Origin: an uncultured bacterium
Lineage (GTDB): Bacteria > Cyanobacteriota > Vampirovibrionia > Gastranaerophilales > Gastranaerophilaceae
Assembly (NCBI GenBank): GCA_949290355.1
Contig: CASERN010000011.1
Location: forward strand, 496,001-560,000
Direction of reading: 5' to 3'
DNA length: 64,000 bases
The notes below the pieces were generated by a model, which was given only the letters and a program-made list of their open reading frames with translations, was not told the origin of the DNA and did not search any database. Positions 1,589 to 63,986 of this stretch are shown here, in pieces. Made by a program: the position numbers and the translations under genes. Numbering within the stretch: the first letter of the stretch is position 1; every line of letters starts with the position of its first letter.

Positions 1589-2122
1589 CTATTCAGCAAT
1601 GTCAATTACTGTATACGCATTAAAATCAATCCCTCCATATATTATTTGGACGTGATTGTCTCCATGGGGGAGTAATTTTACAAAATTTATTGTGGGTTCG
1701 TTGAAATCATCATTTGTTTCGTTCGCAGGGATTTTAGCAATAACATCATGCGCCTGATACAATTTCAGATATACGTTATTTCCCTCTTTTACTCCCTCTA
1801 CTTGATAATGACCTATTGGTATAATTTTGTTTTCACTAAGTTTTAATGTTAAGGGAATCAAAAGAATCGGCAATTCTTTTGAAGAATTAATTATAGCGTT
1901 TGTCTCATTACTTTGTGAAAATTGTTCTCCTTTTGGAATGTTTTTATCGCGTTTTTTCTTTCCTTTTTTGCTTTCAATGGCCTTTTGAAAGTCTTCATCA
2001 CTCACAGCTTCTTGTCCATAGGTATTTTGATCCCCAAAATTGTCCCACAAATCATCTTCACCTATTGCAGTGTTTCCGATTGAGACTATTATAAATAATA
2101 TTGCTAAAAAATATTTTTTCAT
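1589..2122 (-). CDS. Secreted or periplasmic protein of unknown function, 177 aa
   Basis: I do not recognise the family. Residues 1 to about 22 form a typical signal peptide (MKKYFLAILFIIVSIGNTAIG). An acidic stretch follows, then a Lys-rich linker (SKKGKKKRDK) at about residues 52-61, and a C-terminal region of about 95 residues that looks like a small beta domain. There is no Shine-Dalgarno sequence. A TAAAAT hexamer lies exactly six bases before the ATG, suggesting a leaderless mRNA. The gene lies 36 bases upstream of deoB on the same strand, so co-transcription is possible but functionally unexplained. Confidence 0.75.
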   Translation of the reverse strand: MKKYFLAILFIIVSIGNTAIGEDDLWDNFGDQNTYGQEAVSDEDFQKAIESKKGKKKRDKNIPKGEQFSQSNETNAIINSSKELPILLIPLTLKLSENKIIPIGHYQVEGVKEGNNVYLKLYQAHDVIAKIPANETNDDFNEPTINFVKLLPHGDNHVQIIYGGIDFNAYTVIDIAE

Positions 2123-2176
2123 ACAAATATTTTAATGTTTTTATATTTAAAGTAAACCTCTTTTTATATGAATATC

Positions 2177-9250: not shown

Positions 9251-9282
9251 TATATTTGGAAAGTTTGTTGTATAATCCACTT

Positions 9283-10335
9283 ATGAGTATTGATAAAAAA
9301 AAGGTTGTCGTTGCATTAAGCGGAGGAATTGATAGCTCTGTTACTGCTCTTATGCTCCAGAAGCAAGGTTATGAAGTAATTGGATTGACAGGGAAAATGA
9401 TAGATTCTTTATCTGCTGATATAATTATCAATAATGCAAAAAGTGTTGCAGATAAGCTAGGAATAGAGTTTCATGTTTTTGATGCCGTTGAGAAATTTAA
9501 TGATAAAGTTATTAATTATTTTGTAAATTCTTATAAGATTGGAAAAACTCCTAATCCTTGTATAATGTGCAATCAGTATATTAAATGGGGACTTCTTTTT
9601 GATTATGCAGTAAATCAGTTAGAAGCTGATTATTTTGCTACAGGACATTATGCAGAAATAAGATTTGCCGATGGAACATATAAGTTATACCCTGCAAAAG
9701 ATGAACATAAAGATCAATTATATTTTCTTTATAGATTGGGACAAAAACAATTATCAAAAACAATTTTTCCATTAAGCAGTTATAATAAATCTGAGGTAAA
9801 AAAAATAGCTGCTGATTATGATTTACCAGTAAAAGATTCGAAGGAAAGTCAGGATATTTGTTTTATTCAAAAACCTTTAAATACCAAGAAATTTTTGTAT
9901 GATAAGTTTGGAATCCAAAAAGGTGATTTTATTGATGTCTTAACCGGAAAAAAATGGGGTGAGCATAATGGATCTTATATGTACACAATTGGTCAAAGGA
10001 AAGGAATAGGAATTGCAGCTCCTTATCCTTTATATGTAATTGATATTGATTCTTCAAAGAACATTGTGTATGTTGGAAGAGATGAAGATAATTATCGAAA
10101 AAATTTAAAACTTGTTGATTTGAATTTTACTTATGATATTAAGAAAACCGAGTTTGATGCTTTGATAAAAATTCGTTATAACATGGATTTTAAAAAGGCG
10201 CATATAAGAGTATTAAGAGATTTTGTTGATGTTGAATTTTACGAGCCAGTAAATTCAATTACGAATGGACAATCGGGTGTTTTATATGATATTGATGATT
10301 ACCATTTAATTGGCGGCGGGTTTATTGTAAAATAA
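9283..10335 (+). CDS. mnmA: tRNA-specific 2-thiouridylase
   Basis: Adds sulfur to U34 of Lys, Glu and Gln tRNAs. The ATP-binding loop shows as VALSGGIDSSV and the catalytic cysteines as PNPCIMCNQYIKWG and ESQDICFI. TGHYAEI and the C-terminal beta domain are also present. The 350-aa length is normal. The ATG at 9283 is chosen over a TTG at 9256: it starts directly at the conserved domain, and TATAAT lies exactly six bases before it with no Shine-Dalgarno sequence, suggesting a leaderless transcript. A tRNA-Lys(UUU) gene, a substrate class, lies at 30.2 kb. Confidence 0.95.
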   Translation: MSIDKKKVVVALSGGIDSSVTALMLQKQGYEVIGLTGKMIDSLSADIIINNAKSVADKLGIEFHVFDAVEKFNDKVINYFVNSYKIGKTPNPCIMCNQYIKWGLLFDYAVNQLEADYFATGHYAEIRFADGTYKLYPAKDEHKDQLYFLYRLGQKQLSKTIFPLSSYNKSEVKKIAADYDLPVKDSKESQDICFIQKPLNTKKFLYDKFGIQKGDFIDVLTGKKWGEHNGSYMYTIGQRKGIGIAAPYPLYVIDIDSSKNIVYVGRDEDNYRKNLKLVDLNFTYDIKKTEFDALIKIRYNMDFKKAHIRVLRDFVDVEFYEPVNSITNGQSGVLYDIDDYHLIGGGFIVK

Positions 10336-11844: not shown

Positions 11845-11914
11845 TAAGTATTTAAAATTGTATTATTGTAAAAATTTTTTCAATTTGTAAGTATTTTTAT
11901 AGTAAAATTTATAT

Positions 11915-13312
11915 ATGGATATTTTGGAAGTAAAAAATCTTTGGAGTGATATAAAAAGCAATCTGAAAGAGAATGTGCCTGCCCCTGCATTTCAAATGTG
12001 GATGGATGCTTTGGAACCTGCGGATTTTGATGGTAATGTTTTTTCTTTAATTACGGTGCATTCTTTAGCTCCGCAAGTTATAAAAGCTAATTATGATAGT
12101 CAAATTCTTGATGCATTGAAAAAGACAATAGGAAATGACGTAAGTTATCAAATAACTTTTGACGCAGAACTAGCTGATAGATATCAAAAAGAAAAGAAAA
12201 AAGAACTTCAAAAAGCCAAAAGAATTTCTCAGGAAACAGAAGAAAGTAAATATATTGATAATTTAGCTCAAATGCAATCTTCTGCAAATCTTAACCTAAA
12301 ATATAAATTTTCGAATTTTGTAGTCGGAGAAAATAGCAGATTTGCTCATGCTGCAGCTTTTGCTGTTGCGCAGAATCCTGCAAAAAAATATAATCCTTTG
12401 TTTATATACGGGGCATCAGGGCTTGGTAAAACCCATCTTATGCAAGCAATTGGACATTATATAATTTTTAACAAACCGAAGCTAAAAGTAAAATATATAA
12501 AAACTGAAGAATATGTGAATGAATTGATAAAAAATATTCAATGCGGGGGGAATGATAGGAATAGCAGAATGGATAAGTTTCGTCAAAAGTATAGAAACGT
12601 AGATGTTCTTTTAATAGATGATATCCAGTTTTTAGAAAGTAAAACTTATACAATGGAGGAAATTTTCCATACTTTTGATAGTCTTCATAATAAAAATAAA
12701 CAAATTGTAATTACGTCAGACAGGTTGCCAAAAGATATCCCGACACTCCCTGACAGATTGCGAACTCGTTTTGAGATGGGACTTATGGTTGATATAACTC
12801 CTCCTGATTTTGAAACCCGTGTTGCTATATTAAAAAATTTAGCTGAACAAGCAAATATAAAAGCCGATTTTGATGTTTTTGAGTATATTGCCAAAAATTT
12901 TGTAAATAATGTTAGAGAATTGGAGGGAGCTTTTAATAAAGTTAGTGCTTATGCAGATATTGAAAAAACTGATTTGACATTAGAATTTGCCAAAAAAGTA
13001 TTGAACTGTGAAGAAATGAAGCAGGAAATTACTATTGAAAAAGTAGCAAGAGCTGTTGGTGAATATTATGGAGTTTCAATTTCAGATTTTTTAAGTTCTG
13101 CACGAAATCAAAGGGTGTCTTCCGCAAGGCATGTGGCTGTATATATGGCAAGAGAATTAACGCAAAAAAGTTTTGAAAGTATTGCGGAATTTTTCAAGAA
13201 AAAACATACAACAATGTTGTATTCTTATGAAAAGATTCGAGATGATTTAAAGACTAATAAAAATTTGGATCAAGATATCGCCGTAATAAGAAGAAATTTG
13301 AGGCAAAATTAA
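11915..13312 (+). CDS. dnaA: Chromosomal replication initiator DnaA
   Basis: ATP-dependent origin-binding initiator. Domain I lies at about residues 1-90, with a short linker. The AAA+ domain has Walker A GASGLGKT at 166-173 and Walker B VDVLLIDDIQFL. The C-terminal helix-turn-helix domain contains the signature SSARHVAVYMARELT. The 465-aa length is normal. There is no Shine-Dalgarno sequence; TAAAAT lies exactly six bases before the ATG. dnaN is not adjacent; ruvA follows with a one-base overlap. I saw no cluster of DnaA boxes nearby. Confidence 0.97.
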   Translation: MDILEVKNLWSDIKSNLKENVPAPAFQMWMDALEPADFDGNVFSLITVHSLAPQVIKANYDSQILDALKKTIGNDVSYQITFDAELADRYQKEKKKELQKAKRISQETEESKYIDNLAQMQSSANLNLKYKFSNFVVGENSRFAHAAAFAVAQNPAKKYNPLFIYGASGLGKTHLMQAIGHYIIFNKPKLKVKYIKTEEYVNELIKNIQCGGNDRNSRMDKFRQKYRNVDVLLIDDIQFLESKTYTMEEIFHTFDSLHNKNKQIVITSDRLPKDIPTLPDRLRTRFEMGLMVDITPPDFETRVAILKNLAEQANIKADFDVFEYIAKNFVNNVRELEGAFNKVSAYADIEKTDLTLEFAKKVLNCEEMKQEITIEKVARAVGEYYGVSISDFLSSARNQRVSSARHVAVYMARELTQKSFESIAEFFKKKHTTMLYSYEKIRDDLKTNKNLDQDIAVIRRNLRQN

Positions 13313-18036: not shown

Positions 18037-18570
18037 TTTTGTGTCTATAAAGCTTAAAAGAAAAGTATTTTTACTCATTTTCCCCCCGACAGTTTCGCGT
18101 TTTTTCCCTTTTGTAGTAATGTAAAAATCCCCGCAATAAGATGTTTCTGTTGTACAAGTTGATGGTGATAACCATACTCCAGTTATTCTTGTTCCATCAG
18201 GCATTACAAAACCTGTAGTTTCTTCTTCATTTTGTTTCCCGATTTTTTCATATTTAACAGATTTGACATATTTAGACATGATGGTTAAAAATTTGTCATA
18301 ATTTGCAAGAGATTCATCTGTATGTTCTAATTTTCCATCATCATTTTCATAATTTTCTGAATCAGTTAATCCCCAGTTATCAAGTGTTCCGTTTTCTTCA
18401 ATAGCCTGCAGATAGGCTTGTGAAAAAGCACTATAAAACTTTTTTACACTTACAACAGTCGCCTGTTCTTGTTGTTTTTGAATTAATGTCGGTAAAGTAA
18501 GAGCTGCAACAACTCCTATAATTCCCAGTGTGATTAATACCTCAGCTAAAGTAAAAGCTCTTTTTTTCAT
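17953..18570 (-). CDS. Type IV pilin-like protein, locus 3 (frameshifted near its end)
   Basis: Prepilin-like protein. The short leader MKKRA is followed by FTLAEVLITLGIIGVV, with Ala instead of Gly before the cleavage site; the mature part is globular. The frame ends ...MAKIILDAPLG, but the last ~30 residues look unlike a pilin. A better C-terminus continues in the next frame to 17882, so one base appears to be missing near 18037-18040. The ATG at 18570 has no clear Shine-Dalgarno sequence. A better-initiated ATG at 18704, behind a ten-C tract, would join this frame with one added base. The gene may be inactive, switched off or mis-sequenced. Confidence 0.8.
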   Translation of the reverse strand: MKKRAFTLAEVLITLGIIGVVAALTLPTLIQKQQEQATVVSVKKFYSAFSQAYLQAIEENGTLDNWGLTDSENYENDDGKLEHTDESLANYDKFLTIMSKYVKSVKYEKIGKQNEEETTGFVMPDGTRITGVWLSPSTCTTETSYCGDFYITTKGKKRETVGGKMSKNTFLLSFIDTKLYQQETLTANLEITVLMAKIILDAPLG

Positions 18571-25773: not shown

Positions 25774-26760
25774 TTAATTTGAAACAACTTCATTTTCTCC
25801 AAATAAGAATACTTGAAGTGAATTTTCTTGTTGTTTTACTGGTTTATAAAAATCTTTTACGAGAACGCATTGTGTTTGAATGCAGTTTAAGTTCCTTTCG
25901 TGGAGATATTTTTCTAATATATCAGCATTTATTGTGTATTGGCGGTGTTTTAAAAAAGCATAAAAAACTTTTTTTCTGCAGGCTATTTCACTGAGTGCAA
26001 AATTTATAATTTCGTCATAAGGGATATTATATCCGTCATTTAACGACATATCTATTATAAAGTTGAGATTATCGCTTGTTGTAATAGATAAGTATGCGAT
26101 AATTCTATGATTTGATGGTTCCTCAAGCACGTATCTGTTTTTATAAAAACTTGTCATCCCTGCAAAAAAAGGTTCTTTATATTCTTCTTTAATTCTTTGC
26201 AAGGATGGTTTGTATAAATTTTTTAGTTCATTATTATACAATTTTGCAACTTGTTTTGCATCTGAGTTTTGGCAATATCTGAAATTTGCAATTTTATCGG
26301 TCTGTGGAGTAAAATTATCAAGTTTCCATAAATTTTCGTAGCTGCATTGTCTGAATCCGCAGCCTTGCATAAACAGATTCAATAGTTCATCGTGAGATTG
26401 GTCAACTGTAACAGTAAAAGATATTGCACCTTTAGCTCCAAATCTCGCAATTACAAATTCTACAAGTCTTTTGCCCACATCATACATATTTTGTTGAAAA
26501 ATAAGTCTTGTAATATTCATTTTGTATGGATTCCCAGATGTAGGGACGACTGTAATCAGTCCTAAAATTTCATTATTTTCAAGTAAAATGTACGATTCAG
26601 GTAGAAATTTATATTTTAAAGGTAGAATAGCGTGAAGCATTATAAATGCTTCTTCGGTTATTGCTTTAGAATACTTATCTCCATCTTCATTCCCAAGGTA
26701 GGAGATCATTTTTTTTATTTTAGGAGCATCAAAACAATTTAATCTTCTTATTACCGTCAT
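25774..26760 (-). CDS. GNAT-like acetyltransferase-related protein
   Basis: A 328-aa protein with two GNAT-like halves. The first contains ILLENNEILGLITVV and FVIARFGAKGAISFTVTVDQSHDELLNLFMQGCGF, resembling the acetyl-CoA strand and terminal helix. The second begins near NFRYCQNSDAKQVAKLYNNEL. The acetyl-CoA pyrophosphate loop is not canonical, so activity is uncertain. I chose ATG 26760 (MTVIRRL) over 26766 because TATAAT lies exactly six bases upstream and there is no Shine-Dalgarno sequence. The target is unknown. Confidence 0.6.
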   Translation of the reverse strand: MTVIRRLNCFDAPKIKKMISYLGNEDGDKYSKAITEEAFIMLHAILPLKYKFLPESYILLENNEILGLITVVPTSGNPYKMNITRLIFQQNMYDVGKRLVEFVIARFGAKGAISFTVTVDQSHDELLNLFMQGCGFRQCSYENLWKLDNFTPQTDKIANFRYCQNSDAKQVAKLYNNELKNLYKPSLQRIKEEYKEPFFAGMTSFYKNRYVLEEPSNHRIIAYLSITTSDNLNFIIDMSLNDGYNIPYDEIINFALSEIACRKKVFYAFLKHRQYTINADILEKYLHERNLNCIQTQCVLVKDFYKPVKQQENSLQVFLFGENEVVSN

Positions 26761-26766
26761 ATACAT

Positions 26767-26795
26767 ATTATATATTTTTTTTACTATATTTTCAA
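26767..26795 (-). promoter_or_regulatory. Promoter abutting a start codon (probable leaderless transcript)
   Basis: TTGAAA (26795-26790), a 17-base spacer, TATAAT (26772-26767), then six bases and ATG at 26760. Transcription would start at or within a base of the initiation codon. This is the clearest of six similar cases in the window. Confidence 0.65.
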
Positions 26796-39720: not shown

Positions 39721-39737
39721 TGTGGTACAATAAGCTT

Positions 39738-40643
39738 ATGGAAAATAAAAAAGAAATTTATTATAAATATTTTCAAGAAAAAATTCTTCCGCAAATCCTT
39801 CCTTTAGAAAGGTATAGGAGAAAGGTCATTTTAAATGTTATATTATTCTCTTTGTTATTTTTTGCTTTGGGATTAGGATTTGTATATTTGTTTGTAGTTG
39901 TAATGTTTAATAATATACTTGTGCCAATTCTTTTCCCTATTATATTATTTTTAACTTATGTGTTTTTTATTAAAAGTATTATTATTCCAATTGTTTTTGG
40001 AAAAGAGTTTCAAGAAAAATTGAAAACAAGAATTCTTCCTTTATTTCTTGAGCCTGTTGCTAATTTTACGGAGTGGCCTGAAAATAAGAATCTAGAAACG
40101 ATTATTGATTCTTTGCTGTTTTATAATTTTGATACGCAAAAAGAAAATTTTACTTATTTTGGTTTGTACAATAATACAAATATTATAATTTCTGATACAA
40201 AATTAATGATGCCTCCTAAAGGAGCTGTAAGACCAACTCTGTTTAAAGGGATAATTATTCAACTTGAGTTTGATAAATCAATAGATAATCATGTTATTCT
40301 GATGTCAAAAAATGAAAAAAAAGCTAATCCATATAAGCAATACAACCCTCATATTCAGGAACTAAATCGTTATTTGTATACTTTTGCAAAAAATCCTAAA
40401 AATATAAAATTTATTACTAAAGATTTTTGGTCTGTAATAAAAAGACTAGGTGAAGTATATATTGCAAAGGGGTTTGATTTTTCATACCGAAATAATACTG
40501 TAGTTATAGCATTAAGACATAAAAGACCTTTACGTTTTGGCTTTTTGTTCAGATCATTGTTAAAGGCAAAAAATTACGATGATCTAATTGATAGATTCAT
40601 CGTAATTTATGATTTAATTGATATTCTTAACAACCAAAATTAA
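39738..40643 (+). CDS. DUF3137-type membrane protein
   Basis: 301-aa protein. Two transmembrane segments (about residues 30-55 and 60-85) follow an N-terminal cytoplasmic helix (YYKYFQEKILPQILPLERYRRK). The C-terminal ~200 residues form a soluble alpha/beta domain. This layout resembles DUF3137 proteins of unknown function. TACAAT lies exactly six bases before ATG 39738 and there is no Shine-Dalgarno sequence; an earlier in-frame start overlaps the previous gene. The stop shares TTAA with the convergent gene at 40640. Confidence 0.65.
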   Translation: MENKKEIYYKYFQEKILPQILPLERYRRKVILNVILFSLLFFALGLGFVYLFVVVMFNNILVPILFPIILFLTYVFFIKSIIIPIVFGKEFQEKLKTRILPLFLEPVANFTEWPENKNLETIIDSLLFYNFDTQKENFTYFGLYNNTNIIISDTKLMMPPKGAVRPTLFKGIIIQLEFDKSIDNHVILMSKNEKKANPYKQYNPHIQELNRYLYTFAKNPKNIKFITKDFWSVIKRLGEVYIAKGFDFSYRNNTVVIALRHKRPLRFGFLFRSLLKAKNYDDLIDRFIVIYDLIDILNNQN

Positions 40644-55209: not shown

Positions 55210-55848
55210 TTATAAATTTTTATTACAAAATCTATTAATTGGACAGTTATTGCAATCCGGTTTTATTGGTTTACAAATATTTTGTCCATGGGTTACAAGC
55301 AATGTGTTAATGTCTAACCAATATTTTTGAGGGAGTTTAGCTCGAAGTGCAAATTCCGTTTCTTCTGGAGTTTTTGTTTTTACATATCCTAAGCGATTGC
55401 AAATTCTATGAACATGAACATCTACGCAAATAGCAGGTATATTAAATCCTTTTGCAAGGACAAGATTCGCAGTCTTTCGGCCTACTCCGTTAAATTTAAC
55501 TAATTCATCTATTGAGTCAGGGACTTTATTATCAAGTTTTTCTACTATGATTTTTGAGAGTTCTACAATTTGTTTTGCTTTATTTTTATAAAAGCCGACA
55601 GGGTAAATTGCTTTTTCAAGTTTGTTTACATCGCAATATGCAAAATCTTTAGGAGTTTTACCTATTTCAAGCATTCTTAAAGTTGCTGGATATGTTGTAA
55701 GATCGTTTGTTCTTAAACTTAAAATACAGGCAATAAGTACCAAATAAGGATCTTTAAATTCTTCCATAAGTTGTACGAATTCTCTTCTTGGTTGCTTTGC
55801 TTCGATTAGTGCTTGAATTATTTTATCAATATTAACTTCTTGTTTCAT
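55210..55848 (-). CDS. nth: Endonuclease III (DNA glycosylase/AP lyase)
   Basis: Removes oxidised pyrimidines and nicks the abasic site. The 212-aa protein shows the helix-hairpin-helix with catalytic lysine NGVGRKTANLVL and the catalytic aspartate in ICVDVHVHRICNRLG. The [4Fe-4S] loop is CX6CX2CX5C (CKPIKPDCNNCPINRFC). No Shine-Dalgarno sequence; TATAAT is exactly six bases before the ATG, pointing to a leaderless mRNA. Confidence 0.96.
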   Translation of the reverse strand: MKQEVNIDKIIQALIEAKQPRREFVQLMEEFKDPYLVLIACILSLRTNDLTTYPATLRMLEIGKTPKDFAYCDVNKLEKAIYPVGFYKNKAKQIVELSKIIVEKLDNKVPDSIDELVKFNGVGRKTANLVLAKGFNIPAICVDVHVHRICNRLGYVKTKTPEETEFALRAKLPQKYWLDINTLLVTHGQNICKPIKPDCNNCPINRFCNKNL

Positions 55849-55887
55849 ATTATTATTATATTACAACTTAAAAATTTTGTTCTGATG

Positions 55888-55950: not shown

Positions 55951-56039
55951 ATGAAGAAGATTAAGTTTGTACGGAGTTTCGGGGGGGGGGCAGTTTAAAG
56001 CTTACACCGCAAGGGTTTCGAGGATTCTTTAAAGATTCC
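55951..56039 (+). other. Leader ORF with a ten-G tract, out of frame with the pilin (locus 2)
   Basis: AAAGGAG precedes ATG at 55951 by seven bases. Ten codons lead to ten G residues (55981-55990), after which the frame stops at TAA, giving the 15-residue peptide MKKIKFVRSFGGGAV. Eleven (or eight) G residues would join the ATG to the pilin frame, which is open through the whole interval. Tract length, distance from the ATG, stop position and phase are identical to locus 1. Confidence 0.78.
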
Positions 56040-56070
56040 GTGTCGGGTCAAGCGGCACGCTTGGGATTTA
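55977..56070 (+). repeat. Pilin-leader repeat, copy 2
   Basis: Near-identical to 2266-2359 (four mismatches outside an exact ten-G tract). In the joined frame it encodes GGGGSLKLTPQGFRGFFKD followed by SVSGQAARLG up to the prepilin cleavage site. It is richer in G+C than the gene body. Confidence 0.85.
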
Positions 56071-56741
56071 CTCTAGCAGAGGTATTAATAACTTTAGGAA
56101 TAATTGGAGTAGTTGCAGCATTAACGATACCATCAGTAATTAGTAAACATAAGAAAATTGAAACAGTTACTAAATTAAAAACAGCAATGACAACTATAAA
56201 TTCTGCATTTAAACTTGCTGTTGTTGATTATGGAGAAATGCAAAATTGGGATTATATTAATGATTTTGATGATGCTGCTTCAAGAAAAAAATTTATTGAT
56301 AAATATTTAATTCCTTATATAAAAGGAGCTTCTCCATCTCCTGAGGATGCTTATGAGGCTTCTGGCTTAGGTTATCCAAAGTCTACAGATAAATATTATC
56401 CTCATCAACCTAGTGGAAGTATAGTTGGAATGAGTTCCAGAAATTATTACCCTATAGGCTTGTTAAATGGTATTTTTTATTATTCAGGTTTTGATGGGAG
56501 TACTAATATGGTTTTTAATGTTGATTTAAACGGAATAAACAAACCTAATCTTTACGGTTATGATTTGTTTGCGTTTGAATTAGTGCCAGAACAAAATACA
56601 ATTAAAATGTATACATTTCGATATCCTTATAAAACAAATGGTGTATACACATATTGCAACTATGACGGAGCATCAGGTTGTGGATTGGTTATAGAAAAAA
56701 GTGGTTGGCAAATACCTGATGATTATCCTATAAAAATTTAA
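56040..56741 (+). CDS. Type IV pilin / type II secretion pseudopilin-like protein, locus 2
   Basis: Exported prepilin-like protein of 233 aa as read from GTG 56040. The signal is LGFTLAEVLITLGIIGVV and the globular domain ends with a cysteine pair (YCNYDGASGCGLV) and KSGWQIPDDYPIKI. Its first 35 residues match locus 1 closely while the globular domain differs, as in a family of variable fibre tips. The GTG lacks a placed Shine-Dalgarno sequence; the likely native start is ATG 55951 across the G tract. The stop shares TTAA with the convergent lpxK gene. Confidence 0.85.
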   Translation: MSGQAARLGFTLAEVLITLGIIGVVAALTIPSVISKHKKIETVTKLKTAMTTINSAFKLAVVDYGEMQNWDYINDFDDAASRKKFIDKYLIPYIKGASPSPEDAYEASGLGYPKSTDKYYPHQPSGSIVGMSSRNYYPIGLLNGIFYYSGFDGSTNMVFNVDLNGINKPNLYGYDLFAFELVPEQNTIKMYTFRYPYKTNGVYTYCNYDGASGCGLVIEKSGWQIPDDYPIKI

Positions 56742-63525: not shown

Positions 63526-63557
63526 ATTTTTTCTCCTTATGTTATAATTTAGTTGTT

Positions 63558-63986
63558 ATGAGACATATATTTGAAACAAAAGTTTATTATTCAGATACAG
63601 ATGCTTATGGTGTTGTCTGGCATGGTGCTTATTTGAGATGGCTTGAAAAGGGCAGAGTGGATCTTTGTGAAATGATTGGATTAGATCTTGTGTCTATGAA
63701 GAGTATGGACATTTTACTGCCTGTTACTAATATGAATGTCAGATATAAAGCTTCTGCAAAACTTGATGATACTATAATTATTGAAACTTGGATTGAAAAG
63801 TTCAATAGCTTGTCGGTTACATTCAAACAGGTAATTAAATCAAAAGAGACTAATAAAGTATTTATTGAAGCTTTATTCGATGTTGTTGCTATTAGTAATG
63901 ATGGTAAATTGTACAGAAGAATGCCTGAACAGCTTGTAAAAAGTTTTGAAAAAGGTATGGAAGAAAAATGTCCGGTGTGCGTTTAA
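63558..63986 (+). CDS. YbgC-like acyl-CoA thioesterase (hotdog fold)
   Basis: A 142-aa hotdog protein with YYSDTDAYGVVWHGAYLRWLEKGRVDL, the 4-hydroxybenzoyl-CoA thioesterase/YbgC signature with its catalytic aspartate, and NMNVRYKASAKLDDTIIIET. It probably hydrolyses short acyl-CoA or acyl-ACP. ATG 63558 is the start; the longer frame from 63420 is antisense to rubredoxin. There is no Shine-Dalgarno sequence; TATAAT at 63543-63548 lies nine bases upstream, so the leader would be very short or absent. Confidence 0.9.
   Translation: MRHIFETKVYYSDTDAYGVVWHGAYLRWLEKGRVDLCEMIGLDLVSMKSMDILLPVTNMNVRYKASAKLDDTIIIETWIEKFNSLSVTFKQVIKSKETNKVFIEALFDVVAISNDGKLYRRMPEQLVKSFEKGMEEKCPVCV

Follow-up and report, generated by a model that had tools for sequence, protein, structure and literature searches.

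Candidate leaderless genes with a −10 element six bases before ATG in a Gastranaerophilales bacterium

Six genes in the window (the whole 64-kb stretch of DNA analysed here) raise the question of whether their messages begin directly at the start codon: at each, the original prediction had pointed to a TANAAT hexamer exactly six bases before ATG and no Shine-Dalgarno (SD) sequence. Read directly, all six sites are as described and free of any SD-like motif (Table 1): the hexamer is TATAAT before mnmA, the GNAT-like gene and nth; dnaA and the gene for a secreted 177-aa protein have TAAAAT, and the DUF3137 gene has TACAAT. The nine-base spacing claimed for a ybgC-like thioesterase gene, possibly one with a three-base leader, also agrees with the sequence, and the claim of SD sites at most other genes broadly holds, such motifs preceding 35 of the 62 genes called in the window. 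The host is a gut Melainabacterium of the Gastranaerophilales, which we take to belong to the class Vampirovibrionia in the phylum Cyanobacteriota, and the six sites very probably represent a set of its leaderless genes, expressed by the mechanism proposed below.

Table 1. Start-proximal elements in the window and the genes that they precede.
Feature	Coordinates	Strand	Details
dnaA, putative leaderless promoter	11894..11917	+	TTTTTATAG block 11894-11902; −10 TAAAAT 11903-11908; six bases; ATG 11915
dnaA, 465 aa	11915..13312	+	NCBIfam TIGR00362, E 1e-143
mnmA, −10	9271..9285	+	TTTGTTG, then TATAAT 9271-9276; six bases; ATG 9283
mnmA, 350 aa	9283..10335	+	NCBIfam NF001138, E 7.8e-112
DUF3137 gene, −10	39726..39740	+	TACAAT; six bases; ATG 39738
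DUF3137 protein gene, 301 aa	39738..40643	+	Pfam PF11335, E 6.6e-7
GNAT-like gene, putative promoter	26758..26795	-	−35 TTGAAA 26795-26790; 17-bp spacer; −10 TATAAT 26772-26767; six bases; ATG 26760
"GNAT-like" gene (name from the original prediction), 328 aa	25774..26760	-	matches in 38/40 family genomes, own included; no match to product in NCBIfam and Pfam searches
nth, −10	55846..55860	-	TATAAT 55860-55855; six bases; ATG 55848
nth, endonuclease III, 212 aa	55210..55848	-	NCBIfam TIGR01083, E 6.9e-55, bit score below cut-off
177-aa gene, putative promoter	2120..2156	-	−35 TTTACT 2156-2151; 16-bp spacer; −10 TAAAAT 2134-2129; six bases; ATG 2122
Secreted 177-aa protein gene	1589..2122	-	matches in 39/40 family genomes, own included; no match in Pfam and NCBIfam searches
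ybgC-like thioesterase gene, start	63543..63560	+	TATAAT; nine bases; ATG 63558

The genome (1.85 Mb in 14 contigs, 31% GC) was sampled as the window plus 400 kb, 464 kb altogether, in which a home-made gene caller set the starts and SD status of 468 genes, 217 without SD and 251 with. TANAAT occupies positions −12 to −7 in 24 of the 217 SD-less genes and in none of the 251 SD genes, a zero that is partly forced because hexamer and SD would overlap the same bases. The position histogram split by SD status, set beforehand as the result that could refute the prediction, thus has its peak at −12 to −7 and in SD-less genes only. Dinucleotide shuffles (n = 500) of the SD-less genes averaged 1.73 cases at this position, with 6 the highest count in any one shuffle and 9 the extreme over all 25 spacings; with 24 cases observed and no other spacing comparable, AT-richness alone is, as had been argued, a poor explanation of the fixed distance. 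The TAA and TAG of TAAAAT and TAGAAT are in-frame stops at spacing 6 and could bias the choice of start, a bias from which TATAAT is free: TATAAT alone lies at −12 to −7 in 18 of the 217 SD-less genes, against 0.63 expected from shuffles.

The same spacing stands out when gene calls are dispensed with. TATAAT-N6-ATG occurs 45 times in the 464-kb sample against a mean of 21.1 over 20 other spacings (Poisson p = 4e-6), forming the single peak between spacings 0 and 20, where the others range from 11 to 32; TANAAT-N6-ATG occurs 107 times in the sample against 66.8 at other spacings, and 374 times genome-wide against 174 for the reversed pattern. Neither GTG nor TTG shows a spacing-6 peak after TATAAT in the sample, which fits a need for AUG, and internal in-frame ATGs show none either (6 of 2485, with 3 to 17 at other spacings). 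The exact form is present in about 5% of the sampled genes, and the excess in 464 kb, about 22 by genes and about 40 by the annotation-free count, would extrapolate to some 90–160 leaderless genes in the genome.

Sigma-70 promoters typically start transcription at a purine (+1) preceded by a pyrimidine (−1), and their two boxes are 16–18 bp apart. Of the 24 spacing-6 genes, 22 have T at −1, compared, among genes that begin with ATG, with 84 of 169 in the other SD-less group and 97 of 228 in the SD group, and matches to a TTGACA-like −35 peak at a 17-bp spacer, six of the 24 genes having four or more matches. A −35 or an extended −10, together with a −1/+1 initiator, is accordingly found at spacing-6 genes. 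Upstream of SD genes the T-1 A+1 rule does not show clearly, since the sixth and seventh bases after a TATAAT there lean only weakly towards T (0.42) and A (0.43). An upstream neighbour in divergent orientation is found at 15 of the 24 genes, as expected for genes that have their own promoter, versus 68 of the 193 remaining SD-less genes and 69 of the 251 SD genes; three of the 24 follow a co-directional gene at a distance of under 30 bp and, judging by this arrangement, could also be transcribed from an upstream promoter.

Among the candidates outside the window, 17 of 19 were searched against Pfam, two 75-aa open reading frames being omitted. They include ruvC and genes for guanylate kinase, prephenate dehydrogenase, DAHP synthase, histidyl-tRNA synthetase, an amino acid kinase with a PUA domain, LysR and MarR regulators, a histidine kinase and a response regulator. 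The domain match begins at residue 3 in RuvC, guanylate kinase and the LysR HTH and at residue 4 in the response regulator, which fits the ATG being the true start.

Two other arrangements are recorded here as observations in their own right. At L084:12289-12308, the histidine kinase and guanylate kinase genes diverge 14 bp apart across the palindromic TATAATTATA, in which each gene's −10 is exactly six bases from its ATG, making this a back-to-back, bidirectional candidate leaderless promoter; it is the one palindromic divergent −10 pair in the 464-kb sample. Two window genes for otherwise different pilin-like proteins with the N-terminal GFTLAEVLITLGIIGVVAALTIP share a 155-bp block at 91% DNA identity (2266-2420 and 55977-56131) that spans the upstream region and the first codons and includes a run of ten Gs in the first copy. 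Shorter matches to the block lie at 18491-18555 in the window and in L091 and L097, which suggests a repeated 5' cassette.

The dnaA site is retained across the family. Relatives of the gene, up to 94% identical, lie in contigs labelled Candidatus Gastranaerophilales, and at 74 of 78 related loci (one partial locus of 79, L057, was omitted) TANNNT stands exactly six bases before the ATG, 65 times as TANAAT and nine more in the looser form; of the remainder, three have TATAAT at seven bases and one is without a clear start. In a profile of 74 of the 79 loci, selected by TANNNT-N6-ATGGA, T is invariant at −17, −18 and −19 and present at −1 in 72, and conservation extends to a block immediately before the −10, TTTTTATAG or TTTTGTAG, and no farther upstream; these 74 selected loci show no −35 peak at 16–18 bp. 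Outside the Gastranaerophilales family, none of 26 dnaA loci is of leaderless type (one has no candidate start; four short or weak matches, L260-L263, were omitted). The block (11894-11902 in the window) is conserved strongly enough that it may double as the binding site of a regulator.

For the remaining genes we used at most 30 matches per protein from 40 genomes, and the counts hold among the matches listed; an ATG was absent from one locus each of mnmA, nth and the GNAT-like gene, and no match was found at two loci for DUF3137. Profiles were built from 10 of 30 mnmA loci and, for the GNAT-like gene, the 177-aa gene and nth, only from loci with TANNNT at spacing 6. Among these matches, TANNNT lies at spacing 6 in 11 of 29 mnmA loci, including all 10 of those at ≥62% identity (own copy included). 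These close orthologues have a T-rich block similar to that of dnaA, and their 10-locus profile shows no −35 at 16–18 bp; we take the T-rich block of both genes to resemble the −16 TRTG element of Bacillus. The mnmA of more distant family genomes (L120-L129) is about 36–41% identical to that of the window and mostly has SD starts, as if the family held two mnmA types.

The GNAT-like and 177-aa genes keep −10 and −1 T beside a −35. TANAAT precedes the GNAT-like gene at spacing 6 in 17 of the 29 loci among the matches listed (own included), and TTG at −35 to −33, 17 bp upstream, is found in 94% of the 18 loci with TANNNT at this spacing; although our gene caller had placed the window copy's start at ATG 26766, two codons upstream of ATG 26760, the orthologues begin at the ATG six bases past TATAAT. 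Of the 30 loci among the listed matches to the 177-aa gene, 23 carry TANNNT at spacing 6 and one carries SD; a TTTAC-type −35 is conserved 16 bp upstream. In nth, 8 of 29 listed loci have TANNNT at spacing 6 and 7 have SD instead, and the DUF3137 site is not conserved, being found in one of 12 loci, the window copy itself. Comparison therefore favours five of the six genes, nth the least strongly, and gives DUF3137 no support. Several distant relatives of nth and many of mnmA among the matches listed are SD-led, so that orthologues appear to switch between leaderless and SD-led starts, whereas the apparently leaderless form of dnaA is held.

These observations suggest the following course of events, and in this they support the leaderless interpretation originally proposed. 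The housekeeping sigma factor would bind the −10 hexamer at −12 to −7, assisted at the GNAT-like and 177-aa genes by the −35 box 16–17 bp upstream and at dnaA and mnmA, which show no −35, by a TTTRTRN block that extends the −10. Transcription would begin with the A of the start codon, just after the T at −1, yielding an mRNA that opens with 5'-AUG and has no SD. The ribosome, probably in its assembled 70S form, would have to recognise this 5'-terminal AUG directly.

At 31% GC, TANAAT lies near many ATGs by chance (the background at other spacings is about 67 in the sample), and the six-base cases could simply have been picked out from among them. However, none of the other spacings from 0 to 20 has a comparable excess, the shuffles reached 6 at most against the 24 observed, GTG and TTG show no excess and the site is conserved over many genera. 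The single spacing peak and the shuffles together rule out chance for the class as a whole, an account we regard as extremely improbable; individual genes, DUF3137 for one, could nevertheless owe their hexamer to it. The AT-rich element might instead be a translation signal within a longer leader, unstructured or bound by ribosomal protein S1, and no promoter at all: AT-rich signals before the starts of other groups are described in an earlier survey as possibly binding S1 or reducing structure (PMC3160421). Yet an exact hexamer in a fixed register, the T at −1 and a conserved −35 at 16–17 bp point to a promoter, and a purely translational role is very unlikely.

A closer competitor accepts the promoter but shifts the start by one or a few bases from the A, leaving a very short leader of 1–3 nt. 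Such leaders would suit the SD-less genes with TATAAT at spacing 7 (4 of 217) and at spacing 9 (4 of 217, with the ybgC-type spacing part of no clean peak), as well as the three dnaA loci at seven bases, but the dominant peak falls sharply at spacing 6, and T at −1 with A at +1 fits a start at the A itself; as a general account we consider it improbable.

To follow the signature through the phylum, we counted TATAAT-N6-ATG in 194 genomes against spacings 3 and 12, which keep the codon phase and were added because the reversed-pattern count varies between lineages and could not serve as the sole control. All 85 genomes of the Gastranaerophilales family exceed both controls (9890 versus 4020 and 4457, 2.33-fold pooled). 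Among 87 PsaA/PsaB-positive genomes, 34 do so (2566 versus 2151 and 2517), and PsaA-positive genomes keep a small pooled excess of 1.10-fold, with a p of 6.5e-5 that overstates independence because the genomes are related to each other, as do such p-values generally. The 22 PsaA-negative genomes outside the family yield 772 versus 392 and 488, with 19 above both; their groups f12, f16 and f20 have a strong excess, and no clear excess is seen in f23 (1.15-fold), G188 (1.14-fold) or f26, which has no counts at all. From these motif counts, leaderless starts look common in the Gastranaerophilales lineage and rare in its photosynthetic relatives. That they are an old trait of non-photosynthetic Cyanobacteriota which faded in the photosynthetic branch, and that the family's dnaA was kept leaderless so that replication initiation follows the 70S pool and not SD-led initiation, is a speculative extension that we think rather doubtful.

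Leaderless starts are an established minority mode of initiation, and the signature belongs to the TA-like leaderless class and to the −10 elements adjacent to open reading frames (PMC3160421; PMC12340547). In TA-like (TANNNT) genes a hexamer about 12 bp before the start is read as a −10, placed, as here, so that transcription begins at the start codon; low-GC genomes have a fuller TATAAT and sometimes an upstream TG peak, which may take the place of the −35 (Zheng et al., 2011; PMC3160421). The cited parts of that survey describe many Cyanobacteria as having neither SD nor leaderless genes and do not name the phylum among leaderless-positive groups, whereas the present signature lies in its non-photosynthetic branch. 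In Deinococcus-Thermus the −10 likewise adjoins the open reading frame, a few bp before it, and mutation and reporters support promoter function and a spacing requirement; there it concerns about 30% of open reading frames, compared with about 5% here by the strict form, and the element is TANNNT there but near-consensus TATAAT here (Zhong et al., 2025; PMC12340547). An RNA-mapping study in Synechococcus elongatus UTEX 2973, of the same phylum but photosynthetic, takes 19 gene start sites as leaderless (PMC6091082), few as they are; the phylum is therefore not entirely devoid of leaderless genes. We found no report in the open-licence literature joining "leaderless" to Melainabacteria, Gastranaerophilales or Vampirovibrio, and the apparent novelty lies in the lineage, in how it differs from photosynthetic relatives and in a dnaA that has long stayed leaderless.

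A branch of the Cyanobacteriota for which leaderless genes had not been reported thereby joins their probable users, and because the signature is present in that branch and near background in the other, its gain or loss can be studied. Gene callers tuned to SD sites can misplace starts in such genomes, as happened with the GNAT-like gene. A dnaA promoter that abuts the start codon across the family, finally, offers a concrete case for the question of whether leaderless starts link replication to the state of the ribosomes.
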